A stretch of 36,002 nucleotides of DNA from an uncultured Pelagibacteraceae bacterium (GTDB lineage: Bacteria; Pseudomonadota; Alphaproteobacteria; Pelagibacterales; Pelagibacteraceae). Shown here piece by piece: positions 18,383 through 35,192 of the stretch (the stretch's first letter is position 1; every line of letters starts with the position of its first letter). A program made the position numbers and the translations under genes. The notes under the pieces were generated by a model that saw only the letters and a list, made by a program, of their open reading frames with translations, made no database searches and had not been told where the DNA came from. Location: NCBI GenBank assembly GCA_902594915.1, contig CACJOA010000011.1:1-36002 (forward strand), given 5' to 3'.

Positions 18383-18796
18383 TTAACAACTATTGTTTCT
18401 TGTTACTTTTAAAGTTTGATTTAACGAAATCTCACAACCTGATGTAGGATTTTTAGCTGTAATTGTATAATTAGTTCCGCTTGCACTTATACAAAATTGA
18501 AAATCTTGATCGGTTAAATTATCTTGTCCGTCTAAAACATTTGATACAATTTTAGCGCTCGAAGAACTGCTGCAACTTGAGGCACCAGTATAGTAAGATC
18601 CATAATTCGACTTATATTCCTGTAATCCGAGGTTTATAGTATTTAAAGATAATTCAGCTGTTTTCTGTTTAGCGCTTTTGGTATAACCACTGTAAGAAAC
18701 TATTCCTACAGCCGCTAGAATACCTATTAAGGCTACAACAACTAAAAGTTCAATTAAAGTAAATGCTTTCTCGAGTGACTTATAGTGAAAATCCAC
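18383..18796 (-). CDS. Type IV pilin (137 aa)
   Basis: Prepilin with the signal EKA^FTLIELLVVVALIGILAA: an alanine replaces the usual glycine at -1, and Glu is at +5. The start is a GTG (MDFHYKSLEKA), giving an 11-residue leader. No ATG lies between it and the cleavage site, and it overlaps the previous pilin gene by 17 bases, so translation is likely coupled. A C-terminal cysteine pair bounding GCEISLNQTLKVTRNNSC looks like the disulfide-closed D-region of pilins. It is small and compact, as expected of a fibre subunit. Confidence 0.88.
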   Translation of the reverse strand: MDFHYKSLEKAFTLIELLVVVALIGILAAVGIVSYSGYTKSAKQKTAELSLNTINLGLQEYKSNYGSYYTGASSCSSSSSAKIVSNVLDGQDNLTDQDFQFCISASGTNYTITAKNPTSGCEISLNQTLKVTRNNSC

Positions 18797-19306: not shown

Positions 19307-20539
19307 TTATTGGCCCATTATCGCCCCAACATTGAATATTGGCGAGTATAAAGCAAGCATTAATCCACCAATTGTAAGGCCCATAAATACGATCATAATG
19401 GGTTCTATTAAGCTAGAAAGATTTCTCACAGCTGTATCAAACTCCTCTTCATAATATTGTGCTACTGAAGCAAACATAGAGTCTAAACTTCCAGTTTGTT
19501 CACCTACAGAGATTAGTTGACTAAAAGTGGGTGGAAAGATTTTTTCTTTTGAAAATAATGCCGTTAAGGTTTCTCCAGAAAAAACACCTTTTTTAATATT
19601 TTCTAGCGACTCTGTGACTATAGTGTTTGTACTTACAGATTTTGCAATATCTAAACTTTCAAGAATATCAACACCTGCTTGGTTAAGATTTCCCATCACT
19701 AAAGAAATTCTAGCTAATAAAGACTTTCTAATTAAATCCCCAAATATAGGAATTTTAAAAGTGAAAGCATGCCAAGCTTTTCTAAATTGATAGCTTTTTT
19801 GTATACCTAACTTAAATGAAATTATTGTAACAATTGATATAATTAAACTAACAAACCCCCCAGTACCACTCAAGAAAGCACTTGCACCCATGATAGCTGC
19901 CGTAGCTCCGGGTATTTCAACACCCATACCCTCGTACATTTCAGTAAAAATCGGAACAACTTTAATTAACATAAATATTGTTACACTCACCGCAACGCTA
20001 AATAGAACAGTTGGGTAAAATAAAGCACTTTTTATTTGAGATTTTATCTTTTCTCTTTTCTCAAGCGACATAACTATTCTTTCTAGAAAAACATCTAATT
20101 TTCCACTAGCTTCACCAGCTTTAATTAAATTAACTGTTACAGTATCAAAAACTTTTGAATGATTTTCAAAACACTTTGATAAGGCATTACCAGCCTCTAA
20201 ATCTTTTTTTATTTGCTCGATAATTTTTTTCATATTAGGAGAATTAGTTTGCTCAATAAGCAAATTTAATGCGTTTAAAACAGGCAAGCCAGATCTTAAC
20301 ATAGTAGAAAATTGTTTAGCAAAAATTAAAATATCCTTAGCCTTAACACCTTTGCCAAAACTAAATCCTGTGGATTTTTTTTTTTCTTTTTCGACTTTCT
20401 TTTTTTTTGCTTGAATAAGTTTAGTAATTATGACTTTCTGTTCTTTTAGCTTGAAGGCAGCCTCTGAGTTATTTATAGCCTCAATTTCTCCTTCGACATA
20501 CTTTCCTTGAGAAATTCCTTTATATTGAAAGTTAAGCAT
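19307..20539 (-). CDS. pilC: Type IV pilus inner-membrane platform protein PilC
   Basis: This is the polytopic inner-membrane platform on which the PilB and PilT motors act. An N-terminal cytoplasmic region (YKGISQGKYVEGEIEA) leads into two T2SSF/GspF domains, at about 75-195 and 275-400. KDILIFAKQFSTMLRSGLPVLNALNLL is the first-domain signature, and LISVGEQTGSLDSMFASVAQYYEEE the second. Membrane segments lie near 172-192, 222-242 and 375-397. The length of 410 residues is normal. It starts one base after the pilB stop. Confidence 0.96.
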   Translation of the reverse strand: MLNFQYKGISQGKYVEGEIEAINNSEAAFKLKEQKVIITKLIQAKKKKVEKEKKKSTGFSFGKGVKAKDILIFAKQFSTMLRSGLPVLNALNLLIEQTNSPNMKKIIEQIKKDLEAGNALSKCFENHSKVFDTVTVNLIKAGEASGKLDVFLERIVMSLEKREKIKSQIKSALFYPTVLFSVAVSVTIFMLIKVVPIFTEMYEGMGVEIPGATAAIMGASAFLSGTGGFVSLIISIVTIISFKLGIQKSYQFRKAWHAFTFKIPIFGDLIRKSLLARISLVMGNLNQAGVDILESLDIAKSVSTNTIVTESLENIKKGVFSGETLTALFSKEKIFPPTFSQLISVGEQTGSLDSMFASVAQYYEEEFDTAVRNLSSLIEPIMIVFMGLTIGGLMLALYSPIFNVGAIMGQ

Positions 20540-20540
20540 A

Positions 20541-22259
20541 TTATTCTAAACTTAACACTCTCTGATACTCACTAAAAGATAAATCACCAGAATGAATTAA
20601 TTCCCGTCCCATATCCTGCATAGTTCTAAAATTATCCTGTTTAGCCACCTGTTTTAGTTCAAGAGTGGTCGCTTTTCTCAATATTGCATCTTTAATATTT
20701 TTCGAAACTTTCAAAATTTCGTAAATTCCCATTCGGCCTTTATAACCATTTCCAACACCTGCCTCACCACTAGCACATGATTTACAACCTTTGCCATATA
20801 CTGGTCTTACTCTAGAAGCTTCTTCAGCAGTAAAGCCTATTGAAGTAAGAACTTTTGGGTTGACCCTTTCATCAGGTGCTCTGCATTCAAGACAGGTTTT
20901 TCTAGCTAATCTTTGAGCCATAACTAAAGTGCATGCTGCAGAGATCAAATAATCTGGAGTTCCCATGTTTTGAAGTCTAGTAATTGTACTTGGTGCATCA
21001 TTTGTATGAAGTGTGCTAAAAACTAAGTGACCGGTTAGTGCAGCTTTTAAAGCAATATCAACTGTTGCTTTATCTCTAATCTCACCAACTAATATCACCT
21101 CCGGGTCTTGTCTTAAAAATGATCTCAGAGCTGTTTCAAAAGTATAACCAATGTCATCTCTAACTTGCACTTGCCCAACTCCCTCTAATTCATATTCAAC
21201 AGGGTCTTCAGCAGTCAAAATATTCATAGAGGGTTTATTAATTGTCTTTAAAATACTATAAAGAGTTGTTGTTTTACCACTACCTGTAGGACCAGTAACT
21301 AACACCATTCCTTGAGGTGAGTGGATTGCTTCTTCTAAAACTTTAAGATCTTGGTCAGCAAAACCAAGTTTATCTAAAGACTTATCTCCTGCCTCTTTAT
21401 TTAGTAAACGCATAACAATTCTCTCGTTATTTTTCGTTGGCATTATTGATATACGAAGATCCATTTCCTTATCACCATACTTAAAAGTAGAGCCACCATC
21501 TTGAGGAATTCTTCTCTCAGCAATATCAAGTTTACTTAATATTTTTACTCTGGTTACTACAGAGTTATAATTTAATGGGTCTTTGTTTAAGAATTCAGTA
21601 AACTCTTCCATTACCCTTAGTACTCCATCAATTCTAAATCTAACATGGGCACTATCTTTAAAAGGTTCAATGTGAATATCACTTGTTTCTAATTTGATTG
21701 CTTTATTTAAAATTTTGTCAACAAAAGCGATAACATCTGACTCTACCTCTAAAGGTACGTTTACTTGCTTCTTTTTTACTTGTTCTATTTTTTGATTTTT
21801 AAGTTTTGAGGGAGCGCCATGCTCTAACCTTGCTATAAAATCAGAAATTTGCTGTATTGAAGCTGCATAAAGTTCGGGTTGAAGTTTAGTTAAACTCTCA
21901 ATATTTTTAATTAAGCTAAATTTTGAAGCATCAGCAATAGCAACTTTTATTGACTTTGTATCTATCTCAAAAGGAATTATGTAATTTTCTTTAAGAAATC
22001 TTATCTCCGTATATTTTTTTAATTCATCATTTATTTTAACCTCATCTAGTTTTATTAAAGGTATTGAAAAACTGTCTGATAAAAGTTGAGCAACTTTCGT
22101 TTCATTTGTTATATTTAGCTCAAATGCAGTTTCAATTTGAGATTTTCCAGACTCTTTACTTAAATTTTCGATTTGTTTTACTTGTTGTCCACTTAGAGCA
22201 TTATGTTCTTTAAGCATGTTGATGATGCTTTGCTCACTTGTATTATCTAATCTTATCAT
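20541..22259 (-). CDS. pilB: Type IV pilus extension ATPase PilB
   Basis: This is the cytoplasmic hexameric motor that drives pilin polymerisation. An N-terminal MshEN-type domain (about 1-150) is followed by the GspE ATPase core: Walker A GPTGSGKT at 323-330, Asp box LTAEDPVEYELEG, Walker B VILVGEIRD near 388-396, and His box LVFSTLHTNDAPST. A tetracysteine zinc site is present (Cys456/459 and Cys492/495), as in PilB/GspE but not PilT. The length of 572 residues is normal. It sits between pilQ and pilC with one-base gaps, so it is part of a single operon. Confidence 0.97.
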   Translation of the reverse strand: MIRLDNTSEQSIINMLKEHNALSGQQVKQIENLSKESGKSQIETAFELNITNETKVAQLLSDSFSIPLIKLDEVKINDELKKYTEIRFLKENYIIPFEIDTKSIKVAIADASKFSLIKNIESLTKLQPELYAASIQQISDFIARLEHGAPSKLKNQKIEQVKKKQVNVPLEVESDVIAFVDKILNKAIKLETSDIHIEPFKDSAHVRFRIDGVLRVMEEFTEFLNKDPLNYNSVVTRVKILSKLDIAERRIPQDGGSTFKYGDKEMDLRISIMPTKNNERIVMRLLNKEAGDKSLDKLGFADQDLKVLEEAIHSPQGMVLVTGPTGSGKTTTLYSILKTINKPSMNILTAEDPVEYELEGVGQVQVRDDIGYTFETALRSFLRQDPEVILVGEIRDKATVDIALKAALTGHLVFSTLHTNDAPSTITRLQNMGTPDYLISAACTLVMAQRLARKTCLECRAPDERVNPKVLTSIGFTAEEASRVRPVYGKGCKSCASGEAGVGNGYKGRMGIYEILKVSKNIKDAILRKATTLELKQVAKQDNFRTMQDMGRELIHSGDLSFSEYQRVLSLE

Positions 22260-22260
22260 A

Positions 22261-23814
22261 CTAACCTATAACTCTTGGTGCTAAAAAAATTAACATTTCT
22301 TCTAACTTATTTTGACTATTTTTTCCTTTAAATAAATTTCCAACAACCGGAACATTACCTAAGCCTGGAGTTTTTGTGTTTGAGCTAGTATCAGTATTTA
22401 TTTTGATCCCACCAATAACAACGATATCACCATCACTAACCAACAATTTGGTGTCTATTTCTCTTTTTGTAATACCTGGCTCATCAGAACCTGCTACTTC
22501 GACAGGAGTATCATTATTGACTAAAATATCTAATAAAACGTTTCCATCACCAATGATACTAGGAGTGGCTGTTAAAGATAATGCGGCATCTTTAAATTCT
22601 GTAGATGTTGTTCCATCAGCAGTGACCGTATAAGCGATTTGCGTTCCTTGAGTAATTTTGGCCTCCTGATTATTCAAAGTAAAAACACTTGGGCTAGAAA
22701 TAATTTTTGTTTTTCCAAGTGATTGTAAAGCCTCAATTTCAAGTTTGAGTGCAGCTGTGCCTAAAGTTTTAATTATTCCAATTCCACTTGTTGCTCCTGT
22801 GATAGAATTATTTGTTACTGTTCCAGCAGCTGCTCCTAGTGAAATTCCAGTTTGATCTGTTGCTACTCCTCCTATTGTACCAGTAATTATTTCTGACCCT
22901 TTTTCACCACTCACACCTTTTTTAGTCATAGCTCCAATTCTTGAGCCTAAAGCTTTTTGGAAATCCGAAGTTGCGGTAACAATAAATGCTTCGATTAAAA
23001 CTTGTTGTGTTTTTACATCAATTTCTTTTAATACTGCATCAATCACATCCAAATCAGGTTTTCGACCTCTTACAATAATGGATCTAGTCATACTTTCCTC
23101 TGTAATCTGGATGCTACTCAAAGTACTTGTTCCTTCGGGTCCTTGGGATTTGAATAAATTTTCTAGAGTAGTTTTAGCTTCCGCTGGACTTATATAATAC
23201 AGCCTAAAAATATCTGCTAAAATAGGTTCTACTGTATCTTCTAGTTGAATTTTCTTTTTTAGTACCTCTGCTCTTGCAGACTTTAAAGTTTCTTGTGCTG
23301 TTAATTTTTCTGGCGTATGAATTCGAATAATTCCTCTAGCTACATCGATATCTGCACCTAGTGTTTTCATATCAAGTAACGTTTGAAAAGCGACATCCCA
23401 ACCCACATTATCAAGTTTAGCAGTTACCGTCCCGCTAACTTCCTCGCCTACTATAATATTTATACCCCCAATTTGAGCAAGAGAGTCCATTGCATCTCTA
23501 AAATCAACACCAACTAAGTTTAAACTTACGTTTTGTTTTAAATTATCATACTCATTAGAAATACTTACGTAGTTTCTGACTTGCTCGGTTGTAATAGTTT
23601 TTCTTTTATTGGCAGTAGGATCGAATTCTGTTTCAAATGGTTTTGGGCCATATAAGACTTTTTTTTGCATTTCCTCTGTACCTTCAACTACAACTTTAGA
23701 TGGATCAATTAAAGGTTTGTCCCCATGAACAGATTTTTTTTGTGTAGATGCACAATTGGTAACTAATGTTGAAAAGAGTAAAAATAACACTAACTTAAAA
23801 AAACTAATTTTCAT
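22261..23814 (-). CDS. pilQ: Type IV pilus secretin PilQ
   Basis: This is the outer-membrane ring through which the pilus leaves the cell. The N-terminal signal ends at LVTNC with Cys21, a plausible though non-ideal lipoprotein site (Asn at -1). A secretin/TonB short N-terminal domain lies near 95-170 (NLVGVDFRDAMDSLAQIG), then an N1-type domain (DIFRLYYISPAEAKTTLENL). The secretin core carries KTQQVLIEAFIVTATSD and the C-terminal signature TKTPGLGNVPVVGNLF. At 517 residues it lacks the AMIN peptidoglycan-binding domains of larger PilQ proteins. The gene overlaps pilP by four bases (ATGA). Confidence 0.95.
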   Translation of the reverse strand: MKISFFKLVLFLLFSTLVTNCASTQKKSVHGDKPLIDPSKVVVEGTEEMQKKVLYGPKPFETEFDPTANKRKTITTEQVRNYVSISNEYDNLKQNVSLNLVGVDFRDAMDSLAQIGGINIIVGEEVSGTVTAKLDNVGWDVAFQTLLDMKTLGADIDVARGIIRIHTPEKLTAQETLKSARAEVLKKKIQLEDTVEPILADIFRLYYISPAEAKTTLENLFKSQGPEGTSTLSSIQITEESMTRSIIVRGRKPDLDVIDAVLKEIDVKTQQVLIEAFIVTATSDFQKALGSRIGAMTKKGVSGEKGSEIITGTIGGVATDQTGISLGAAAGTVTNNSITGATSGIGIIKTLGTAALKLEIEALQSLGKTKIISSPSVFTLNNQEAKITQGTQIAYTVTADGTTSTEFKDAALSLTATPSIIGDGNVLLDILVNNDTPVEVAGSDEPGITKREIDTKLLVSDGDIVVIGGIKINTDTSSNTKTPGLGNVPVVGNLFKGKNSQNKLEEMLIFLAPRVIG

Positions 23815-24236
23815 CCTTCAACCTTTACTAAATTATTATTTAAATCAAGAGAATATTCTATTTGATCCATCTTAAGATAAATATTTTCATTAAATATATC
23901 TAAAATCATTAGATCACTAGAAATAATTGTATCTTCTTTATATTTAACTGTTCTACCATCTGGCAAACTAAATATTGCGATTTTTTTGTTGGACCCTATG
24001 ACAATACCACTTAGTTTCAAATTTTTTAAAGAGACTGAATTATTAGATGAATTTACTCCAGTGGTGCTTAAACCGTCTCCTGATACACCACTTGTTCCTG
24101 TTCCTCCTAAAAATGGATTTACTGCCGGAAGTTCTTCTTCAATTAAATTCTCCTTATCATGATTCTCAGCCAAACTTGGACTGAACCAAAATAAAACTGA
24201 TAATAAAAGAATTAATAATTTTTTATTCATACTCAT
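23811..24236 (-). CDS. pilP: Type IV pilus assembly protein PilP-like
   Basis: A small periplasmic protein expected to link PilQ to PilN-PilO. Signal peptide MSMNKKLLILLLSVLFWFSPSLA is followed by a flexible Gly/Ser region with NPFLGGTG, then a compact beta domain (about 75-141: LKNLKLSGIVIGSNKKIAIFS, LPDGRTVKYKEDTI) like the homology-region fold of PilP/GspC. There is no lipobox cysteine, unlike classical PilP, which is a lipoprotein. The assignment rests on position between pilO and pilQ plus the domain pattern. A second ATG two codons downstream could be the real start. Confidence 0.8.
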   Translation of the reverse strand: MSMNKKLLILLLSVLFWFSPSLAENHDKENLIEEELPAVNPFLGGTGTSGVSGDGLSTTGVNSSNNSVSLKNLKLSGIVIGSNKKIAIFSLPDGRTVKYKEDTIISSDLMILDIFNENIYLKMDQIEYSLDLNNNLVKVEG

Positions 24237-24858
24237 CTGGTAACCCCACGATTGAAAGCGTTCCTACTGAATTTATCCCCCCGTTTTTTACAACTTTAAT
24301 TTCTTCTCTATCAAAATTTATAACTTTATTAGATTTAGCAAGTGCTCTTCTAAATTTTAAATAACCAAGATAATTTCCTGATATTTCATATGAAACTGGA
24401 ATTCTAAAATAATCTGGCTTTTTTTTATTTCCTTGAATTACAGGTAGAGGATTTTCTTTATTCAAATTTACAATATTTAAATTATTCACGGACGCAAAAT
24501 TGCTGATATTTTGATATAGACCTTCAACTTCTTTTTGACTATGAAATAATTTACTTTTTTTGTCATACTCTGGTTGAATCTTTTTTATTTTTGACTTTAA
24601 TAAAATAATTTCCTGCTTTAGGGTCTGAGTTTGTTGTTCCTTTTGCAACATTAATTCAATTCTTTTTTTTTGAGCTTCTACCTTAGGATTAATAAATACA
24701 TAATAAATGATTAGGAAAAGCATTATTGATCCAAAATAAATTCCAAATTTTGTAAGAAATTTTTTATCTTTAAATATTTCGTTTTTTTTAAGTTTTTCTA
24801 ATAAATCTTTAACGTCAATATTTTTAAGATCTAAATTTTTTAATTCATCTAACTTCAT
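24223..24858 (-). CDS. pilO: Type IV pilus assembly protein PilO-like
   Basis: Inner-membrane alignment protein that pairs with PilN. A short cytoplasmic N-terminus (DELKNLDLKNIDVKDLLEKL) leads to one membrane segment (about 37-60, IYFGSIMLFLIIYYVFI). A long periplasmic coiled coil follows (about 65-120), then a ferredoxin-like domain with the PilO pattern PVSYEISGNYLGYLKFRRALA. The length of 211 residues is normal. It overlaps pilP by 14 bases and the PilM-PilN gene by four (ATGA). Confidence 0.92.
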   Translation of the reverse strand: MKLDELKNLDLKNIDVKDLLEKLKKNEIFKDKKFLTKFGIYFGSIMLFLIIYYVFINPKVEAQKKRIELMLQKEQQTQTLKQEIILLKSKIKKIQPEYDKKSKLFHSQKEVEGLYQNISNFASVNNLNIVNLNKENPLPVIQGNKKKPDYFRIPVSYEISGNYLGYLKFRRALAKSNKVINFDREEIKVVKNGGINSVGTLSIVGLPDEYE

Positions 24859-26996
24859 ATTTTTAATTTACAAAGAATTGTAAAACCTTTTTTGTTATTT
24901 GCTGATTGTAAATCATTTTGTCCTTGTGGTACATTCATTGCTTTTAAAGACGCTTGATCGACTAGATCTTTTGAGTTTAAATTAGATATAAAGTTTATAA
25001 TATCTTGATCAGAAAAAGCTAAACCTGTAATCATTATTTCATTCGCTCCATTATAGTTTAAGTTAGTAAACTGAACTCTTTGTGGAACACTTCTGGTAAT
25101 CTGAGCAAGTGCTCGATAGGTGATTTTTTGATTTGAGTTAACCATTGCTCCAAGCTTTAGAGCCTTTTCCATATCCTTAACTAACTTAGTCATCTGCTGA
25201 TGTTCTTTATTAATAATATTAAATTCTTGTTGAATATTACTCTCATTAACTAACTTATTTTTATTTGCACCAATTTGGAAAAAAGAAAATCCAATTAAAA
25301 AAATGTATATAGCTGCGATTCCACCAACTAAACCTTTCATTGCAAAACCTGATAAAAACTTCATCTTTGTTTGTCTTTTTAATGCCTCTCTGTTTGGTAG
25401 AAGATTAATATTCTTAACGGCAGTAACGAATTTATAATAACCAAATACATCTAATTTCCTGTAAGCTAATCCTAGAACTGATGTATAAATGGATTTATTA
25501 ATTATATCGATTTTTTCTTTATTATATTCAGGTATTTGAATTTCATTTAAAGGATCAAAAACCTGAAGCCCAGTATTTAATAAGTTCTTCCTAAATAGAG
25601 GAATTAATTCTTCAATATTATTTAAGCTACTTACGATCTTAATGTTATTTATTTTTGACGAATATTTACTTTCATAATCATTCAGCGCTTGTTTCAATTG
25701 CATACAATATCTTCTTACTACACTATCAGTATCGTCGTTTTGCATGTTTCCTGAATGTTGAGACAAAATTTCTTTCTCATTTGGTCTTAAAAAAATATCT
25801 GTAATAATTGGAATATTTTCATGCACTACAATCAGATAATTGTCCTCAGATCCGATTTCTAACATGGCATTATTAGCCTTATTTTCAATTTTTAAAGCAT
25901 TATCAAAAGCATTCTTTAAGGTAAAACACTTAACATCCATTATAACAGGATTTAAACCTGCTTTTTTAACTATTGAGGAATATGAGTTTACATCACTAAG
26001 TTTTGAAGCAACAAAAAGTATTTCCATTGTATTCATTTTATTATTTCTACTTATTACCTGATGAAATATAGAATACTCATTCAAATCATCTGTTAATTGA
26101 ACCAAATTTTCCCAAAGCGAGTCTGTTTCTATGGCCTTTTGTAGTTCCTCATCTGTCATGAGAGGACTAGTTACAACTCTAATTATAGCGCTCGTTACTG
26201 GAATAGAAATTGCAACGTTAGTTGTTGCAATCTTTGAATTATCCATAGCGAGTTTAAGTTCATCTGACACATAATCTTTTGAATTGATTATTCCATCTGC
26301 AGTTTTATTTTTATCAAGTAGTCTTAATGAAATTTTTTCTAATATCCAGTTTGACTCAGTTTTGGTTAATTGAGCTATTTTGATAGAATCCTCACTAATA
26401 TCTATCCCAGCAATTTCTTCACCTGCAACATTTGCTTTACTTATTTTTTCTGAAAATATTTTTTTAAAATTCGAAAATCTCTTATTATTTTGTTTTTCAC
26501 TTTTATTAGTATTGGACTCCTTTTTCTTTAATAAAAACTTATCTTTTAAAGATGAAAAGTTTTTTAAAGATGAAAAATCTAGATTAAATATTTTTTTCTT
26601 TTTTTCATCTAATGCAGGCTTGTCAGAAGGTTTTTTGATTTTCTCTTTTTCTGGAGTTTGAACATCTATTCTATCGTTAACGACAGTTTGGTTATCATTT
26701 ATATCCTCTAAGCTCTTTTCAAAAGTTTCTGTCTCAACTTTAGTTTCTATTGTTTCATCATTTTTTTCATTATTAGTCGAATTTTCTTCAAGTTTTCCTG
26801 CAATTAAATCATCGTACCATTTTCCAAGTATTACTTTTGCTTCTTCAAGATCTGTTGTGCCCGAAGATATGACTTTTTGTTTGCCATTATGAAAGGTTCT
26901 ACCTACCCAATTCTCAGATTTCAACTTACCCTTGTATTTATCTTGTCTTACATAGATGTGTAGTCTTCCATCTTTAGTTGAAATAATATTTGTCAT
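24855..26996 (-). CDS. pilM: PilM-PilN fusion with an N-terminal integrase-like DNA-binding head
   Basis: A 713-residue protein that fuses two parts of the pilus alignment complex. Residues 195-520 are the actin-like ATPase PilM (IAGIDISEDSIKIAQL). Residues 525-713 are PilN, with the INLLP motif at 530-534, a membrane segment at about 551-575 and a periplasmic coiled coil and globular domain. Normally PilM and PilN are separate and PilM binds the INLLP motif, so a fusion is mechanistically sensible. The first 70 residues are foreign to both. They form a short beta-rich region (RLHIYVRQDKYKG, WVGRTFHNGKQKV) then SGTTDLEEAKVILGKWYDDL, which strongly resembles the N-terminal DNA-binding domain of tyrosine integrases. 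A charged, low-complexity linker (71-190) tethers it. The head would be cytoplasmic. The gene is first in its operon and faces the heptamer array. Confidence 0.88.
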   Translation of the reverse strand: MTNIISTKDGRLHIYVRQDKYKGKLKSENWVGRTFHNGKQKVISSGTTDLEEAKVILGKWYDDLIAGKLEENSTNNEKNDETIETKVETETFEKSLEDINDNQTVVNDRIDVQTPEKEKIKKPSDKPALDEKKKKIFNLDFSSLKNFSSLKDKFLLKKKESNTNKSEKQNNKRFSNFKKIFSEKISKANVAGEEIAGIDISEDSIKIAQLTKTESNWILEKISLRLLDKNKTADGIINSKDYVSDELKLAMDNSKIATTNVAISIPVTSAIIRVVTSPLMTDEELQKAIETDSLWENLVQLTDDLNEYSIFHQVISRNNKMNTMEILFVASKLSDVNSYSSIVKKAGLNPVIMDVKCFTLKNAFDNALKIENKANNAMLEIGSEDNYLIVVHENIPIITDIFLRPNEKEILSQHSGNMQNDDTDSVVRRYCMQLKQALNDYESKYSSKINNIKIVSSLNNIEELIPLFRKNLLNTGLQVFDPLNEIQIPEYNKEKIDIINKSIYTSVLGLAYRKLDVFGYYKFVTAVKNINLLPNREALKRQTKMKFLSGFAMKGLVGGIAAIYIFLIGFSFFQIGANKNKLVNESNIQQEFNIINKEHQQMTKLVKDMEKALKLGAMVNSNQKITYRALAQITRSVPQRVQFTNLNYNGANEIMITGLAFSDQDIINFISNLNSKDLVDQASLKAMNVPQGQNDLQSANNKKGFTILCKLKI

Positions 26997-27022
26997 AAAC
27001 GAATCATTAATTTTTTTGTGTT

Positions 27023-27051
27023 ACAATACAATTCTAACACAATTTTGTCAA
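27023..27051 (-). promoter_or_regulatory. Sigma70 promoter of the PilM-PilN operon with heptamer in the spacer
   Basis: On the - strand a perfect -35 TTGACA (27046-27051) is followed after exactly 17 bp by TATTGT (27023-27028; four of six match the -10). Transcription would start near 27016, about 20 bases before the ATG at 26996. One heptamer (27035-27041) lies in the spacer and another (27017-27023, opposite orientation) touches the -10 and covers the start site. A protein bound there would block RNA polymerase. No Shine-Dalgarno sequence is seen. Confidence 0.65.
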
Positions 27052-27226
27052 CATATTTTGTGTTATACAAAAAAAATGATAATTTTCGATCTATAATTGA
27101 CCTTTTTTTTGTGTTACAATCATTTAAAGATAAAAAATTTTTGTGTTAGACAATATTTTATTTGTGTTAGAGTAGAAATTATAGTGTTAGAATTTAAAAA
27201 TAATATTTTTTTTTTAATGCTAATTC

Positions 27227-27260: not shown

Positions 27261-27289
27261 TTGATTAAGATTTGTATTTATAGTATAAG
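27261..27289 (+). promoter_or_regulatory. Sigma70 promoter of the pilT arm
   Basis: TTGATT (27261-27266; four of six match the -35) is followed after 17 bp by TATAAG (27284-27289; five of six match the -10). Transcription would start near 27296, inside the heptamer at 27293-27299, leaving a leader of about 70 bases before the pilT ATG. Confidence 0.6.
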
Positions 27290-27291
27290 TT

Positions 27292-27329
27292 TTGTGTTAG
27301 AGTTTTTTAAAAAAACTACTCTAACACAA
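27292..27329 (+). repeat. Inverted repeat of two heptamers at the start of the pilT leader
   Basis: A 12-13 bp arm (TTTGTGTTAGAGT and its reverse complement ACTCTAACACAAA) flanks a short A/T-rich centre. Each arm contains one heptamer, so as DNA it is a two-site operator at the transcription start. As RNA it would be a hairpin at the 5' end of the pilT message. No T run follows, so it is not a typical terminator. Confidence 0.6.
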
Positions 27330-27367: not shown

Positions 27368-28378
27368 ATGATTGATAAGATTTTAAACATAATTAGTGAA
27401 AATCCGAAGGTGTCAGATTTTCATCTTAGAGCAAATTGCCCATTTTCTTATAGATTATTGGGGGAAATTAAGATTTTAGACGAGGAAGTCATAAAAAGTG
27501 AGGATATTGAAGCATTTTTAAGCAAATACTGCTCAAAATCAGATGTTGAGATATTTAACTCAAAAAATGAGCTTGATAGTGGATTTATGGTAGAAAACGT
27601 AAGATTTAGAGCAAATTTCTATAGAACCCTTAAAGGTCCTGCGGTTGTCCTCAGAAAAGTTGAAACCACGATCCTCAGCATGGAAACGCTTAATTTACCC
27701 CCCGTTTTGTACAGTATTGTTGATATGCATAAAGGGTTAGTGTTAGTAACAGGGCCAACTGGTTCAGGTAAATCTACTACATTAGCTTCAATAATTAACC
27801 AAATAAATGAGTCTAGGCATGCGAATATAATCACAATAGAAGATCCTGTTGAATTTATCCACAAAGATAAAAAAAGTATTATTTCTCATAGAGAAGTAGG
27901 AAAACAAACAGAAAGCTTTTCAACAGCGCTAAAAAGTGCATTACGAGAAGATCCTGATGTTATTTTAGTAGGGGAGCTTAGAGATATTGAAACTATTAGT
28001 ATGGCTTTAACAGCAGCTGAAACTGGTCACTTAGTTTTTGGAACATTGCATACCAGTGGAGCACCTAATACGATTAATAGAATAATTGATGTATTCCCAT
28101 CCGAACAACAAGCTCAAATTCAAGCGCAACTTGCTGATAGTTTGAAGATGGTTGTTACACAAAAATTATTTAAAACAACAGATGGTAAAGGGAGGGTTGG
28201 TGCTTTTGAAATAATGGTTTGTAACTCTCCTGTAAAGAATTTAATTCGTGAAAAGAAAATTCATCAAATTCCAAGTGTAATGCAAACCGGAACACGCGAT
28301 GGAATGATATCTATGGAAAAATCTATTGAAAATTTAGTACAATCTGGAAAAATAAGTAATATAGATGCAAAACAATAA
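27368..28378 (+). CDS. pilT: Type IV pilus retraction ATPase PilT
   Basis: This is the hexameric motor that depolymerises the pilus and powers twitching or uptake. After a PAS-like N-terminal domain (about 1-100) come Walker A GPTGSGKST at 129-137, Asp box ITIEDPVEF, Walker B VILVGELRD, and His box LVFGTLHTSGAPNTINR. The run from IDVFPSEQQAQIQAQLADSL onward is characteristic of PilT rather than PilB, and there is no tetracysteine site. The length of 336 residues is normal. It is the first gene of the + arm, divergent from the PilM-PilN operon, and its 3' end overlaps the next gene by 14 bases. Confidence 0.96.
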   Translation: MIDKILNIISENPKVSDFHLRANCPFSYRLLGEIKILDEEVIKSEDIEAFLSKYCSKSDVEIFNSKNELDSGFMVENVRFRANFYRTLKGPAVVLRKVETTILSMETLNLPPVLYSIVDMHKGLVLVTGPTGSGKSTTLASIINQINESRHANIITIEDPVEFIHKDKKSIISHREVGKQTESFSTALKSALREDPDVILVGELRDIETISMALTAAETGHLVFGTLHTSGAPNTINRIIDVFPSEQQAQIQAQLADSLKMVVTQKLFKTTDGKGRVGAFEIMVCNSPVKNLIREKKIHQIPSVMQTGTRDGMISMEKSIENLVQSGKISNIDAKQ

Positions 28379-29063
28379 AGCTTTTTCAATAATAGAATTA
28401 TTGGTTGTTATAGCCATAATCGCAATCGTATCAGTATTTGGATATCCTAAAATTGATCAATGGTTAACCGACAGAGAGATGAAAAATGAAGTAAATAGTT
28501 TTGTAACATACTTCGAGGAAAAAAAATCTGAAGTTGAAAATAGAAAATACGGTGTATTAGTAATTGGTCAAACATCCCCTGAACAAGACAAAAGTAGAAA
28601 CTATTATATAACTAATGAAGAATATGCAATTCAAATGAAAGTTCCAGCAGCAGGTAGAACAAACAGAAATGACCCGTCTAAATACGATAACAAGAGTATA
28701 ATGAACTTTTACAAAATGTGTCCAGGCTCTCCTCAAAATAGTCCAGATGCTAATTGGATTACAGATGAAAGTGGAGCGTACCAATGGCCAGATACTGTTT
28801 ATACGTGGCCAAATAAAAAATACTGTGTATCTAGAAATGCGATTTTGTTTCCAGGACAACTTGAATTCAATGTAACCCCAACAGAGAAAGCAAGTTTTGT
28901 TATTTGCTCTAGAAGTAATACAACACATTCTAGTGGAAATAATAGATGCAACTATAGTAATAAAAATGCTTATCGTTATGCTGTTCAGATCGCAAGAAAT
29001 TTAGATCTAAAAATTTTTAAATATAATAAAGATACAGATAAATGGATAGAACAAAAAAGATAG
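28365..29063 (+). CDS. Minor pilin, FimT/GspH-like
   Basis: Prepilin with site NKA^FSIIELLVVIAIIAIVSVFG: alanine at -1, Phe at +1 and Glu at +5. After the alpha-1 helix comes FVTYFEEKKSEVENRKYG, a helix followed by strands as in FimT/GspH pseudopilins, but the globular domain is larger than usual (232 residues in all) and contains four cysteines. As the first of a set of four minor pilins before PilY1, it is expected to sit in the tip-priming complex. It overlaps pilT by 14 bases. Confidence 0.8.
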   Translation: MQNNKAFSIIELLVVIAIIAIVSVFGYPKIDQWLTDREMKNEVNSFVTYFEEKKSEVENRKYGVLVIGQTSPEQDKSRNYYITNEEYAIQMKVPAAGRTNRNDPSKYDNKSIMNFYKMCPGSPQNSPDANWITDESGAYQWPDTVYTWPNKKYCVSRNAILFPGQLEFNVTPTEKASFVICSRSNTTHSSGNNRCNYSNKNAYRYAVQIARNLDLKIFKYNKDTDKWIEQKR

Positions 29064-29506
29064 AAGGAGTAAGTTTAATAGAGTCTTTAGTTTGCTTAGT
29101 TATTATAGGTATAGGTTTTATTGGTGTTAATCAAATGATTAGCTACGCCACAACCTCTATTGATAGGTCTGTGGATGCAAATAAGATTAATTTTTTATCT
29201 GAAACAGCTGTAGAGGACATTATGGGGGATGCAAACAATGCATCGAAATATAGTTTTTCTCAACAATGTACTAAAAATTACAATTCCACAGGATCACTCG
29301 CCGAAAAAGTTAAAGTGAAGTGGGCAAAACATTTTATGCAAGAAAACCAATTAAAAATTAACAATAAATTTAAAAAAATACCTTGTGATCAATTAGACAC
29401 TAAAGAAGCTACAATAAATTCTGGAACGGACGGTACGACAGTAAAATTTAAATTTAAATCGGGCAAAGGAAAAAAACAAAAATTTATAGGGGTCGTAGTC
29501 AAATGA
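29042..29506 (+). CDS. pilV: Minor pilin, PilV-like
   Basis: Prepilin with site KIEG^VSLIESLVCLVIIGIGFIG: Gly at -1, Val at +1 and Glu at +5. The following NQMISYATTSIDRSVDANKI resembles PilV/GspI-type minor pilins. At 154 residues the size fits. It overlaps the previous gene by 22 bases and the next by four (ATGA). The assignment rests on signal type, order (FimT, PilV, PilW, PilX, PilY1) and size. Confidence 0.8.
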   Translation: MDRTKKIEGVSLIESLVCLVIIGIGFIGVNQMISYATTSIDRSVDANKINFLSETAVEDIMGDANNASKYSFSQQCTKNYNSTGSLAEKVKVKWAKHFMQENQLKINNKFKKIPCDQLDTKEATINSGTDGTTVKFKFKSGKGKKQKFIGVVVK

Positions 29507-30234
29507 GAAAAATTAGAGCATTTTCACTTCTTGAAACCCTAATAGCAATGGTGATAGGAGCAATTTCAATTGCAGCAATATCCTACTCTTATATTTACTT
29601 TAATAACAGTTATCAAAAAATTTCAGATAAAGCCAAAATGAGTAAAGCAGGAAGATCATCTTTAGCAACAATTGCTAAAGATCTTAGAAATGCCGGGTAT
29701 AAAAATATGAACTATACAAGATCCGACTGGGACCGTTGGATCGAAAAGAAAGACTCTTTCAATGGAACGCGGGGAGATAGGCTTAGAATATGGTATAATA
29801 CTTCATCACAAGATAGGATTGAAATTAGTTATTATTTAGTAAAAAAAAACAATTCTGAAGAAACTTATTTAGTTAGAGAGATAACTGAGAATCCAGTCGT
29901 TAATCCAATGAAAAGAAATTGTGAAAGATTTGATACACAACAAAATTGCGCCCCTATTACAATAGTTGAAAATGCAACCGATTTTCAAGTTTTCTTTAAT
30001 GACATTAATGGAAATAGGCTAAACAATGTTGATATTTCTTCAACTGAAAATCAATCTAAAGTTCATACTGCTGAAATTTATATTACTGTAAGATCCCCAA
30101 ATGAATTATTAAAAAATCCTATCTCTTTTGATATGTTAAACGGAGGAACTTCAGGTCAATTTACTAAAAGCGACAGATACTTAAGAGAAACTTTTTATAT
30201 TAGTGTATATTTGAGAAATGTTGTTAAATCATAA
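29503..30234 (+). CDS. pilW: Minor pilin, PilW-like
   Basis: Prepilin with site IRA^FSLLETLIAMVIGAISIAA and Glu at +5. The region SKAGRSSLATIAKDLRNAGY is the hallmark of PilW/GspJ-type minor pilins, in which a D-(L/M)-R-x-A-G motif follows the alpha-1 helix. The 243-residue length fits PilW. It overlaps both neighbours (4 and 17 bases), so the minor-pilin genes form one coupled translation unit. Confidence 0.88.
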   Translation: MRKIRAFSLLETLIAMVIGAISIAAISYSYIYFNNSYQKISDKAKMSKAGRSSLATIAKDLRNAGYKNMNYTRSDWDRWIEKKDSFNGTRGDRLRIWYNTSSQDRIEISYYLVKKNNSEETYLVREITENPVVNPMKRNCERFDTQQNCAPITIVENATDFQVFFNDINGNRLNNVDISSTENQSKVHTAEIYITVRSPNELLKNPISFDMLNGGTSGQFTKSDRYLRETFYISVYLRNVVKS

Positions 30235-30832
30235 AAAGATAAAAAATGAAAAAGGTTTTGCTATTGCTCTAGCTTTACTTATGTTAGTTGCTATGTCTTT
30301 GATGGGAGCTACTCTTATGATTATAGCTGCTGGAGATCATAAACAGAATGGAAACCTTAATGTGAAACAACAAACATTCTATGCTGCAGAAACAGGTATA
30401 ACTGAGGCAAAAAAATGGTTGAGTACTCAATCAACCTTAACACTTGGAAGTGACCCAAATAGTCAATTATCTTTTTGTAAAACATCTTTATTTGGAGAAC
30501 TTTCTAATCCTAAAGCTATAAAAGATTATATTGGAAAAAAAGATATGAGTGAACTTATAACCGGAGAGAATAACTTGACTGATTACAGTTATGAATATTT
30601 TATTACTTATACACCAGATGCTGGGGGAAATACTCAAACTCCTATTACTCAAACTGTTTCAGGCGCTACAGGAGGTGATATTTCTCAAGGAACTAATTAT
30701 AAGAATACAGGCACATCAACAGCTACGTATTACAATATTTATTCATGCGGCTGTAATGCAAATAAAAACTCATGTAATTTAAATGATGATATAGTAACAG
30801 CTTTACAAACTACAGTTACACTTGTGAATTAA
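30218..30832 (+). CDS. pilX: Minor pilin, PilX-like
   Basis: Site EKG^FAIALALLMLVAMSLMGATLM. There is no Glu at +5, as is usual for the PilX/GspK type that caps the fibre. The downstream pattern KQQTFYAAETGITEAKKWL is the PilX signature (Q-x-x-x-AAE-x-G-x-x-x-A). At 204 residues it fits. A cysteine-containing C-terminus (YSCGCNANKNSCNLNDD) may form disulfides. Its stop shares one base with the next gene's ATG (TAATG). Confidence 0.88.
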   Translation: MLLNHKKIKNEKGFAIALALLMLVAMSLMGATLMIIAAGDHKQNGNLNVKQQTFYAAETGITEAKKWLSTQSTLTLGSDPNSQLSFCKTSLFGELSNPKAIKDYIGKKDMSELITGENNLTDYSYEYFITYTPDAGGNTQTPITQTVSGATGGDISQGTNYKNTGTSTATYYNIYSCGCNANKNSCNLNDDIVTALQTTVTLVN

Positions 30833-31350
30833 TGAAAAAAATAATTTTAACAATTTTTGTCTTTTTTTTAAGCTCTAAGATAGCTAATGCTTGTGACATT
30901 ACTTTTGTAAATTTTGGAGATAAAAGTGATAAACTAATAGAAAACCAAGATGCATTACCTTTTGAAGATCAATTTAATGGTCAAAAAATACTTGTTCCCA
31001 CCTTATTTATTTGTCCAGAAAACGAAAAGCTTAAAGACACTATGGTGGAATACTTATTTGTCGAAAATAAGCTTGTATTAATAACTTTAATGAGAACTTT
31101 TATGAACGATAATGCTCTTATGGATTTTGCAATGAATAAATACGGTAAATTCAAATTACCTATTGGAAAAGATAAAAAAGATTGGCGAGGAAGTCATACT
31201 TGGGAAGTGGGAAACAATATAATTTTATATGTTCATGCAGATACTGAGGAAGGACCTGCAGAAATATTAGAAATAAGCAGTAAATTATATGCTCAACAAC
31301 TCTATAATTACAATGATAAGGTTTCAGAATGGCTAGACTCTCAAGAGTAA
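30832..31350 (+). CDS. Unknown exported protein between PilX and PilY1
   Basis: A 172-residue protein with a good signal peptide, MKKIILTIFVFFLSSKIANA, so probably periplasmic or secreted. The mature part has a cysteine at its second residue (CDITF) and another in LFICPENEKL, which could pair. The rest is mixed alpha/beta with KDWRGSHTWEVGNNIILYVHAD. I do not recognise the family. It is tightly coupled to pilX (one-base overlap) and pilY1 (22-base overlap), so it is made with the tip complex. It might be a chaperone or partner of PilY1, but nothing in the sequence proves this. Confidence 0.7.
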   Translation: MKKIILTIFVFFLSSKIANACDITFVNFGDKSDKLIENQDALPFEDQFNGQKILVPTLFICPENEKLKDTMVEYLFVENKLVLITLMRTFMNDNALMDFAMNKYGKFKLPIGKDKKDWRGSHTWEVGNNIILYVHADTEEGPAEILEISSKLYAQQLYNYNDKVSEWLDSQE

Positions 31351-34300
31351 TACTGATTATCATTTTTGCGTTAATAAATACAAAGTTGTATGCAAAAAAC
31401 CCTCCACCAGGAACTGGTACATCAGACATACCAGCAAATATATTAATAATGTTAGATAACTCAGGAAGTATGAGATCGCAGCTTCCGCAGAAAACAGGTC
31501 TTCTTTATCCAGTAGATGTTCAGACTGATAGTTCAGGAAATATTTTTGTTTTAGAATATGCTTATGACAGAATGAAAGTTTTTGATAGTTCAGGAGACTA
31601 TGTAAGAGGATTTGGTAGTAGAGGTTCAAGTTGTAAACAATGGAGAAATGCTAGACAGTTTGTAATTTATAACGATCAAATTTATATTGCTGACTATGGC
31701 AATCGTAGAGTTACTGTTCTTGATCTAAATGGAAATTGTGTAAGACAAAGTGCAACTGTTTTTGCTCGACCGTCAGGTATAGCTGTTAATAATGATTATG
31801 TTTTTGTGAGTAACAGAGGCACAAGCATAGAAAGATTTACTAGAAGTGGTTTAAATCAAGCTGGTTATCAATATTTTAGTAGTAGTGAAGTTAATTGGGC
31901 TTTTGGTTTATCTATGAACAATGCTGGAAATAAACTGATTGCTGCAAATTGGAGTGGTAGAAGATTTTCTGAATTTAATGTATCAGGTAGCTCGCTAAAT
32001 TTCTCAAGAAGTTTATATAGAGGTCCAGTAACATTTGATGCAGATTATGATAGTAGTGGAAATATTTTTGGGTCAGAATCTAACAGACTGAGAAAATACA
32101 ACTCTAGTTTATCATATCAAAATCAAATTGCTGCAAACTATAGTATGCCACTCGGGGTTCATCTTGACAGTAGTGACAATATTTATGTAGCAGACCACAG
32201 AAAGAACCGACTTGTAGTATATAACAGTGCAGGTACTGTTCAATTTCAAGTGGGAGGTGGAAGAGCTAAAACACGTTTGAGAGCAGCAAGAGACGTTATA
32301 AAGAAAATTGTCTCAAACACAGATCTTACTTCTGGAGCTAATTTTGGTTTGATGGAATGGGGATCAAATAATAATTCAAGAACAAAGATTTTAGTTCCAA
32401 TAAGTGATAATGGTGCCAGACAAATTTTTAGACAAGTTAATAGAATAAGAGCCATAGGTGGAACAAGACCTGTATTTGCAATTGATAAAGCAAATAAATA
32501 TTATAAAGGGCAAACAGGTTTTGGAGCTGTGCCTAATTATGGTGAGACATGTGCTCAAAACTATATAATTTTTATTAGTGATGGCCAATGGTCTAATCAC
32601 AGTACTTTCATGAGTAGATTATCAAACATGAAAAACCAAGATCAAGGAAAATTAATTAAAACTTTTGTTGTTGGTTTTGCTGTTGGAGGAAATACAAGCA
32701 ATTACACAACTGCAGCTACAGCAGGAGGAACTGGTAGCCCTTTATTTGCAGAAAATGAGTCTGAGCTTTTAACAACTTTAACTGATGCAATTAAACAAGC
32801 TATTTCTGGAAGATTAACATTTACTACACCTGCAGTTATGTCCGACGTGCAAAGAGGTGACTTTGTTTATCAAGCGACATTTGAATATGCTAGCAACAAA
32901 CAATGGGAAGGAACTATAAAAAAATATCAATTGCAAAGTAATGGCGAGTTCGGAAATATGCAATGGGATGCTGCAGCTACACTTAACGCTAGGACAAGCG
33001 ATAGGAGAATTTGGTCGTCGGGAATCTCAGGAAGCACAAGCCTGAATAATTTTACTACAACTAATAGAGATGAAATAAGAGGTTTAATATACCCACAAAG
33101 TACTCCAACTGATACTGCTATTGATAACTTAATTAATTTTATTAGAGGAACAGACACCTATGATCAGGATAGTGATGGCAGTACAACTGATGATATTCAT
33201 AAAGTAGCCGACATTTACCATTCAAATTTGATTGTTGTTGGTGCACCTGAGGCCTCAACAGCAACTTCTGTAGTTTCAAATTTTAATAAGACTGATGCAT
33301 ATTATAGAATTCAAAATAGTTATGAAAATTTTAAAACTTCAATGGACTGCGGGGTGAGTTGCCAACACAGAGAAGAGGTAGTAATTGCAGGTGCAAATAA
33401 TGGTATTTTACATGTTTTTAAAACAGATAATAATTCTGGGGGAGAGGAACTTTGGGGATTTATTCCTCCTGCAATAATGGAAAACTTATCAAGAATTCCA
33501 TCGAATAAAGCGAATGCAACAAATCCAATTTACGGAATAGACGGATCACCTGTAGTTAAAGATATTTACTTTGATGATACTCCAAGTGATAATGTTTCAA
33601 ATCCAAGATGGCGAACAGTCTTAATAAGTGGATTAGGTGCTGGAGGAAATGGTTTTTTTGCCCTGGATATTACAAATTTAGAAAAGCCTAAACAACTTTT
33701 TTCAATTTTAAATGACCCAACAAATAAAATTATAACCCACTGGGATAGCGATGGTGGATCAAATATTTTTAGTTATGTTAATGGAACAATTAATGCTGAA
33801 TTGGACTACCGGAAATTAGGTGAAACATGGTCTACTCCGAGAATAATTAGAATAAAGTTAGATAGCACGAATGATGGTCAAGTTAACCCAACAGATAGAT
33901 GGGTTGCAGTTTTTGGAGGTGGTTACAACCAATCAGTTAATCCAGATATTGGTTCAGCGGTATTTGTAGTAGATTTAGAAAATGAGGGAAAATTGTTAAA
34001 AGTGATAGATATTGAGGATAAAAAGGAGTCGTCATATGCTTGGACAGGCTCTTTGTTCAAAAGGACTTCAGCATTGATAAAAGATCCAACTACGAATGAA
34101 GAAAATAGAGTATTTGCTGTATCCGCACAAGATAGTTCATCTAATTTTGGTACAAATCCTGGATGGAACCCCAACGTTTGTTACGACCCAAACACTAATC
34201 AAAGTATAACTGCAGAATTCAATCCTGTTGTATCTCATAACATTGAATTTAAGACTGTAGGTAACTTAGAATGTGTAGATTATGTAGAACTTGATGAGTC

Positions 34301-35192
34301 TTGGCCAAATACCCGTGAAGGGGGGCCACCTAAGCCTGATAGAGGTGATGTTACCTTTAGAAGATTAGGTAATGACGTTGTAAATGGATTACCTGCTGAC
34401 TTAACTGTTATTACTGCAGATGGTACGGGTAAAGCAAATTATAATGGAGCAATGATTTATGCAAATGACCTTGAGGGAAAAATTACAAAAATTGATTTAA
34501 CTGGGGATTACACCATGGACTTAGATTCGACCAGTCCTACTTACTTAACTATAAAAGAAAACATTGATAAGACAATATTATTTGATGCTGAAACGACTTC
34601 TGATAATGGTAGATATATTTTCACTAAATCAACTGTAACAATTAATAATGATAATAATTTATGGTTATATTTTGGTACTGGCAATACTCAAAAGTTACGT
34701 GAAGAATCTGCTCAAATACAAAATAGACTTTTTGGAATAAAAGATACAGATTTTCCAAATTTTGTAAATGTTTCATCTGTTGGCAACGTTTCTAAGTGTA
34801 CAAAATCAGAGTGTCCAGTTCCTGCAAACAAACTTGGTTGGTATGTTGAATTACAAAACAAACAAAAGCTTACAGCTGAACCAACTGTGAATAAAGATCG
34901 CGTCTTTTTTCCAATATATGAGCCATTTAGAGGAAGTGCATGTACAACAGGTAAAGCTTTGTTAACAGCACACGACACATTATGCGGTAAATCTCTTTTA
35001 AATATTGAACTTGGATCTGGAGTGTTGTCAAAAGTTGTTGTTCAAGGTGATAATATATACGTCGGTATAGCAGGTAGAGCTAAAGATAAAATTGATGGTT
35101 TCACCTCAACTGATAATTTGATAACAGGAAAAACTGGATCAACTAGCACTGGAGGCGCGGTCCAAACTCAATATTGGAAAGAGATTGATTAA
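31329..35192 (+). CDS. pilY1: Giant PilY1-like pilus tip protein, vWA domain split by an NHL propeller
   Basis: A 1287-residue exported protein with signal peptide MARLSRVILIIIFALINTKLYA. A von Willebrand A domain begins at about residue 36: its metal site is Asp43/Ser45/Ser47 (DNSGS), Thr379 (GGTR) and Asp418 (ISDG). Between Ser47 and the next vWA helix (KTRLRAARDVIKKIV, about 314) lies an insert of about 255 residues with six NHL-type blades (for example VQTDSSGNIFVLEYAYDR and VHLDSSDNIYVADHRKNR). The C-terminal half is the usual PilY1 propeller, with an EF-hand-like calcium loop DQDSDGSTTDD at 612-622 and ISGLGAGGNGFFALDIT. It would sit at the pilus tip, with the vWA domain and propeller acting as an adhesin. 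It is the last gene of the + arm and ends 15 bases from pilD, tail to tail. Confidence 0.93.
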   Translation: MARLSRVILIIIFALINTKLYAKNPPPGTGTSDIPANILIMLDNSGSMRSQLPQKTGLLYPVDVQTDSSGNIFVLEYAYDRMKVFDSSGDYVRGFGSRGSSCKQWRNARQFVIYNDQIYIADYGNRRVTVLDLNGNCVRQSATVFARPSGIAVNNDYVFVSNRGTSIERFTRSGLNQAGYQYFSSSEVNWAFGLSMNNAGNKLIAANWSGRRFSEFNVSGSSLNFSRSLYRGPVTFDADYDSSGNIFGSESNRLRKYNSSLSYQNQIAANYSMPLGVHLDSSDNIYVADHRKNRLVVYNSAGTVQFQVGGGRAKTRLRAARDVIKKIVSNTDLTSGANFGLMEWGSNNNSRTKILVPISDNGARQIFRQVNRIRAIGGTRPVFAIDKANKYYKGQTGFGAVPNYGETCAQNYIIFISDGQWSNHSTFMSRLSNMKNQDQGKLIKTFVVGFAVGGNTSNYTTAATAGGTGSPLFAENESELLTTLTDAIKQAISGRLTFTTPAVMSDVQRGDFVYQATFEYASNKQWEGTIKKYQLQSNGEFGNMQWDAAATLNARTSDRRIWSSGISGSTSLNNFTTTNRDEIRGLIYPQSTPTDTAIDNLINFIRGTDTYDQDSDGSTTDDIHKVADIYHSNLIVVGAPEASTATSVVSNFNKTDAYYRIQNSYENFKTSMDCGVSCQHREEVVIAGANNGILHVFKTDNNSGGEELWGFIPPAIMENLSRIPSNKANATNPIYGIDGSPVVKDIYFDDTPSDNVSNPRWRTVLISGLGAGGNGFFALDITNLEKPKQLFSILNDPTNKIITHWDSDGGSNIFSYVNGTINAELDYRKLGETWSTPRIIRIKLDSTNDGQVNPTDRWVAVFGGGYNQSVNPDIGSAVFVVDLENEGKLLKVIDIEDKKESSYAWTGSLFKRTSALIKDPTTNEENRVFAVSAQDSSSNFGTNPGWNPNVCYDPNTNQSITAEFNPVVSHNIEFKTVGNLECVDYVELDESWPNTREGGPPKPDRGDVTFRRLGNDVVNGLPADLTVITADGTGKANYNGAMIYANDLEGKITKIDLTGDYTMDLDSTSPTYLTIKENIDKTILFDAETTSDNGRYIFTKSTVTINNDNNLWLYFGTGNTQKLREESAQIQNRLFGIKDTDFPNFVNVSSVGNVSKCTKSECPVPANKLGWYVELQNKQKLTAEPTVNKDRVFFPIYEPFRGSACTTGKALLTAHDTLCGKSLLNIELGSGVLSKVVVQGDNIYVGIAGRAKDKIDGFTSTDNLITGKTGSTSTGGAVQTQYWKEID

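Follow-up and report, generated by a model that had tools for sequence, protein, structure and literature searches.

The window analysed here (36,002 nucleotides) is a contig from an incomplete 1.05 Mb SAR11 (Pelagibacterales) genome consisting of 28 contigs. At 24855-26996 on the reverse strand it contains an uninterrupted single open reading frame (ORF) of 713 amino acids, here called pilMN, in AT-rich surroundings (G+C about 29%). The encoded protein is made up, in order, of an N-terminal head, a disordered charged linker, PilM, a transmembrane helix and PilN. The head (residues 1-66; 26799..26996, (-)) is a DNA-binding domain of the integrase arm-binding type, assigned by homology to SAR11 integrases, an AlphaFold2 model and structural matches. 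The linker (residues 67-190; 26427..26798, (-)) is charged, poorly conserved and predicted to be disordered, with pLDDT below 50 across residues 71-192 in the full-length structure model. The PilM part (residues 191-530; 25407..26426, (-)) is supported by Pfam and the model, and the PilN part (residues 531-713; 24858..25406, (-)) by Pfam, the model and the sequence, where an INLLPNRE stretch is kept at residues 530-537. Both Pfam matches exceed the curated cut-offs: PilM_2 at residues 197-395 (E 1.2e-22, 80.8 bits; cut-off 27) and PilN at residues 630-710 (E 2.8e-9, 37.3 bits; cut-off 22.8). The full-length model has one transmembrane helix, at about 554-578, ahead of the PilN domain. The start at 26996 is correct for the window's lineage, in which the protein begins at the head, as in integrases; most other headed lineages have an acidic leader (mostly 54-134 amino acids) ahead of it.

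The gene lies in a cluster of type IV pilus genes. Co-directional with it are pilO, an ORF at the pilP position and the pilQ secretin (22261..24858, (-); Pfam PilO, Secretin), of which the pilP-position ORF (23811-24236) has no Pfam match, and the same operon-like run includes pilC and pilB (19307..22259, (-); Pfam T2SSF, T2SSE, MshEN). Divergent from pilMN are pilT, pilin-like ORFs and a PilY1-like gene (27368..35192, (+); Pfam T2SSE, N_methyl, T4P_PilY1). The window also contains an autotransporter beta-domain protein adjoining the pil cluster (13784-15985, (-)), in agreement with a reported adhesin beside pilus genes in SAR11 (PMC12636525). A further pilin-like ORF (18383-18796, (-)) has a weak match, below the cut-off (E 0.0011), to ComP_DUS, the minor pilin of DNA uptake.

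An original prediction, made without database searches, had described residues 1-70 as an integrase-type N-terminal head that is not followed by a catalytic integrase domain, and had proposed structure prediction as a check. Both parts of this description hold. AlphaFold2, using 20 relatives, gives the head a beta-beta-beta(-beta)-alpha structure with a pLDDT of 87 (strands at 4-7, 12-21, 24-36 and 39-44, C-terminal helix at 50-65), which is the integrase N-terminal type of fold and meets the criterion for an arm-type binding domain, a three-stranded sheet plus a C-terminal helix. A tyrosine recombinase catalytic domain after the head was found neither by Pfam nor in the model, and the charged linker, PilM and PilN are there instead. 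Foldseek by itself gave no significant structural match for the head. Re-alignment of its candidates with VIA-align 2 lifted arm-binding domains to the top: P4-like integrases, matched in their arm-type binding domains, take the first three places (Z 6.1-6.5, rmsd 2.0-2.2 Å), and an AP2 domain comes next. Structural Z values below 8 are weak on their own, and the stronger evidence for the integrase arm-binding identity of the head comes from sequence homology. A head profile matches two SAR11 proteins with E values of 6.5e-29 and 2.2e-28, both of which are full-length tyrosine integrases (Pfam Phage_integrase) adjoining tRNA-Leu. A wider profile matches, more weakly (E 3.7e-5), one integrase in another alphaproteobacterial family, outside the order, which was recognised as an integrase by reading its sequence. 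The computation shows homology between the head and the arm-binding domain at the N-terminus of tyrosine integrases. Other searches with the head were less productive: with the head alone there was no match in Pfam, a sequence search of the PDB returned nothing credible, and matches in PHROGs were all weak, with a family of unknown function as the best of those shared. Weak matches of the head profile in proteins of about 390 and 450 amino acids were rejected as chance, as they fall inside what read as CoA-transferase-like and histidine-kinase-like proteins. The head is nevertheless a real conserved domain and the best conserved portion of the protein; compared with a distantly related headed protein (L003), the window's protein is 72% identical in the head, 56% in PilM, 39% in PilN and 29% in the linker.

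Among 397 sampled Pelagibacterales genomes, 119 have pilMN, and at least 69 carry the head on it (one of them partial, at a contig edge). The headed genomes span several genera and include the single-contig complete genomes G066 and G190; the head also occurs in dozens of single-cell genomes. Relatives are SAR11/Pelagibacterales by their record names. In all 80 loci fetched from named genomes the head is in a PilMN-type reading frame, with a few cut by contig ends. The possibility that the protein exists only in one sequence, as an assembly error, is ruled out by this recurrence in complete and single-cell genomes. One claim of the original prediction fared less well, namely that a fusion of PilM and PilN is itself unusual. 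Headless SAR11 congeners have the same fusion (about 570-590 amino acids), so the fusion as such is ordinary here, and in type II secretion a single protein, GspL, is the counterpart of PilM plus PilN (PMC4471445). What is new is the head and its DNA sites. It is worth noting that one genome, G354, has two pilMN loci (L191 and L165), one headless and one headed; in the headed copy the acidic leader appears frame-shifted. In a second headed lineage (L020, L022, L025, L027) the divergent pilT neighbour has been lost and the box array described below has been kept, and in several of its members pilMN follows an ORF of about 430-460 amino acids that reads as GAF-domain-like.

The DNA sites were not part of the original prediction, and they lie outside the coding region, in the 371 bp separating pilMN from the divergent pilT. 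Here there are nine TTGTGTTAGA sites, a box being defined as a site with at most one mismatch from TTGTGTTAGA. Five of the six exact copies of TTGTGTTAGA in the 1.05 Mb genome fall in these 371 bp. Three boxes are at the pilMN end: box 1, TTGTGTTACA, at 27016..27025 (+); box 2, TTGTGTTAGA, at 27033..27042 (-); and box 3, TTGTGTTATA, at 27058..27067 (+). Box 4, TTGTGTTACA, is at 27109..27118 (+), followed by box 5, TTGTGTTAGA, at 27141..27150 (+), box 6, TTGTGTTAGA, at 27162..27171 (+), 21 bp from box 5, and box 7, TAGTGTTAGA, at 27182..27191 (+), 20 bp from box 6. At the pilT end are box 8, TTGTGTTAGA, at 27292..27301 (+) and box 9, TTGTGTTAGA, at 27320..27329 (-). In other headed genomes, exact TTGTGTTAGA sites likewise cluster upstream of pilMN; headless genomes have one or two scattered exact copies. 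Across 42 dereplicated headed loci, there are 7.7 boxes per 500 bp upstream of the start versus 0.14 downstream, and in these upstream regions the most common spacing between neighbouring boxes of the same orientation is 21 bp, two helical turns. The arrays comprise 5-9 boxes and are found between or upstream of pil operons. The lack of a genome-wide scatter speaks against reading the boxes as DNA uptake sequences, and that reading was rejected.

Promoters were called as consensus matches. The best promoter-like site of the region in an independent scan (10/12) is a predicted pilMN promoter, TTGACA-17-TATTGT, at 27023..27051 (-). Box 1 overlaps its -10 element and extends over the start-site side, box 2 is within the -35/-10 spacer and box 3 is immediately upstream of the -35, so that three of the nine boxes upstream of pilMN are on the predicted promoter; both the promoter and the binding are predictions. 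The predicted pilT promoter, TTGATT-17-TATAAG, is at 27261..27289 (+) and is followed by box 8, at the expected start site, while box 9 is downstream of the predicted start site. Both arrangements are largely kept in the window's group. In 8 of 9 dereplicated lineages there is TTGACA-17-TATT(A/G)T at pilMN, and pilT has, also in 8 of 9, a TTG-type -35, a 17-bp spacer and TATAA(A/G), then directly TTTTGTGTTAGA. Promoter-like sites are not enriched in the region as a whole (5 versus 4.1 expected from shuffles). The promoter is harder to make out in the second headed lineage, where three boxes lie mostly 25-95 bp before the ATG. For the window's lineage, the computation shows that boxes overlap promoter-like sequences.

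Head and boxes occur together. In the set of loci used for the PilMN tree, at least two boxes are present in 43 of 43 dereplicated headed loci and in 0 of 32 headless ones, and all 38 headless loci with 500 bp of upstream sequence have no box there. One headless locus (L013) has two bare GTGTTA and no array. The contrast is also seen within a single genome, G354, where the headless copy is without boxes and the headed copy has seven; in G335, which is headed among headless relatives, there are three boxes in the available 207 bp. One headed contig, L087, was left out of the box counts; it has no boxes and looks chimeric just upstream of the gene. Its positions 1-499 resemble the antisense of a neighbouring gene, which suggests a single-cell amplification chimera. 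The PilMN tree needs only about three head changes, with one independent pair on well supported branches, and the head-box counts are therefore not independent. What the computation shows is an association with few independent events.

A further line of evidence comes from the two SAR11 integrases. Their non-coding att flanks were scanned for enriched 7-mers, with the pil boxes kept out of the search. GTGTAAG is the top 7-mer in one locus and, with overlaps, among the commonest in the other, and the flanks carry GTGTAAGAG, near-identical to the pil boxes. Each integrase locus has three exact TTGTGTAAGA sites, on both sides of the integrase plus about 2.6 kb further. Near matches exceed every shuffle in L147; in L148 the enrichment is weaker, with 6 of 200 shuffles as high. 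A separate 21-bp repeat (D20), found blind, contains the same word as these sites, and sites of this kind also lie no more than about 70 bp from the ATG of the integrase gene, as they do at pilMN. The TTGTGTAAGA sites are what would be expected of arm-type sites, one base off the pil boxes, although binding is inferred. The loci themselves (L147:2611-4877 and L148:2482-4729) are small elements integrated at tRNA-Leu(caa); besides the tyrosine integrase they contain a 236-amino-acid ORF that reads as serine recombinase-like. The simplest history that we can infer is a joining of pilM to the 5' part of an integrase gene that brought its own operator-like arm sites along.

In the window's lineage boxes lie on predicted promoter elements of both pilMN and pilT, and PilMN is therefore most likely an autogenous repressor. 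We regard it as likely that this is a captured integrase circuit, with PilMN acting as a membrane-anchored repressor of pil operons; the binding, the repression and any coupling to assembly are inferred. On this reading the fused, GspL-like PilM-PilN belongs to the inner-membrane part of the type IV pilus and has acquired a tyrosine integrase's arm-binding domain, either along with its arm-type DNA sites or matched to them. The head would bind the TTGTGTTAGA boxes, PilN would anchor the protein in the membrane, and the flexible linker of about 120 residues would reach the DNA. PilMN would in this way repress pilMNOPQBC and, where divergent, the genes for PilT, pilins and PilY1. As an example of possible coupling, unassembled PilMN might expose its heads and shut pilus synthesis down. 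There are no binding or expression data for this reading, and the sequence cannot decide between repression and activation. Matching sites cluster on the predicted promoters of the pilus machine's own genes, and it is therefore likely that a part of the pilus also controls pilus genes. A bolder version, in which the machine senses its own assembly, retraction or phage contact and reports to the promoters through the membrane-held head, is possible, but we lean slightly against it.

The rival that survives best is that the head binds the boxes and activates, or switches between activation and repression, with PilMN as a membrane regulator of the ToxR/CadC type that reads the state of the pilus. 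The membrane-anchored topology with a cytoplasmic head is in its favour, and additional groups of boxes distant from the core promoter could serve activation or looping. Against it, the boxes of the window's lineage that fall on the -10 or between it and the -35, and the one covering the pilT start, are at the usual positions of repressor operators, and the pilMN promoter hardly needs an activator because its -35, TTGACA, is already consensus. We consider this rival unlikely. Less probable still is that the head tethers the chromosomal box array to the pilus base, in a positioning or structural role without transcription control. A tether would be well served by five to nine phased boxes, a multivalent membrane protein and a long flexible linker. 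However, the array is found only upstream of pilMN, follows pilMN across genomic contexts and sits on promoter elements, none of which a tether needs. There is equally little to recommend the view that an unrelated regulator uses the boxes as operators, with the head binding something else or nothing. No binding has been shown and the independent evolutionary changes are few, but a motif one base different surrounds SAR11 integrases that carry the homologous domain, and the co-occurrence of head and boxes is perfect, including the contrast within G354. An accidental fusion or assembly artefact without function, conceivable when the protein had been found in a single genome in 28 contigs, is all but excluded, since several genera have the protein in genomes that are complete or come from single cells, and the head is its best conserved part.

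The proposed autorepressor resembles several known systems in part. The arm-binding domains of tyrosine integrases (IntTn916, IntSXT/P4-like and related subgroups; PMC8138268) share with the PilMN head the beta-beta-beta-alpha fold, the N-terminal position and repeated short sites, which for PilMN are putative targets, in addition to the homology with the SAR11 integrases. PilMN differs in having no core-binding or catalytic domain, in the fusion to PilM-PilN, and in having its putative sites on predicted pil promoters, not on att DNA. Integrases of tRNA-associated elements are known to repress their own expression from sites that overlap the int promoter (PMC2951348). In the autoregulation of KplE1 intS and P4 int, the sites overlap the gene's own promoter, as is predicted for PilMN, and this is the apparent source circuit; in PilMN the presumed targets are pilus genes, and the recombination function has been lost. 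PutA, an enzyme that associates with the membrane, carries a DNA-binding head and is an autogenous repressor (PMC5293562). As proposed for PilMN, a functional protein here controls its own regulon through an N-terminus that binds DNA; unlike PilMN, PutA has a ribbon-helix-helix head and is a metabolic enzyme and a peripheral, not an integral, membrane protein. GspL has a PilM-like cytoplasmic part, a transmembrane helix and a PilN-like periplasmic part in one chain, and is not known to carry a DNA-binding head. AP2-type transcription factors of plants and Apicomplexa are related to integrase DNA-binding domains (PMC6631176) and are another case of an AP2/integrase-type domain reused for transcription, but they are eukaryotic, dedicated transcription factors and not components of a machine.

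To our knowledge, a DNA-binding domain has not been described in any other structural protein of type IV pili or type II secretion systems; the literature searched names none, and contains no experiment on a headed PilMN protein. Among heterotrophs in surface ocean waters, SAR11 bacteria are the most abundant (PMC12636525). Their pili and gene control are hardly known. The case illustrates how a host machine may take over the regulatory circuit of a mobile element, domain plus cognate sites, and the prediction is directly testable, as it states which domain would bind which 10-bp sequence at which promoter. If the bolder sensing reading were true, one protein would link a surface machine to transcription, derived from a whole captured integrase circuit.

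The head domain is also found outside cells' pilus genes. Four marine viral contigs encode a protein of 115-116 amino acids that consists of the same head domain and a hydrophobic, transmembrane-looking C-terminal helix (L207:2992-3339, L208:2992-3339, L209:1828-2178 and L210:2983-3333). These proteins have no catalytic domain and no box array nearby, and known phage genomes contained no relative of them or of the SAR11 integrase. Judging the transmembrane helix by the appearance of the sequence, the viral protein is a second, phage-borne and membrane-anchored version of the head domain.
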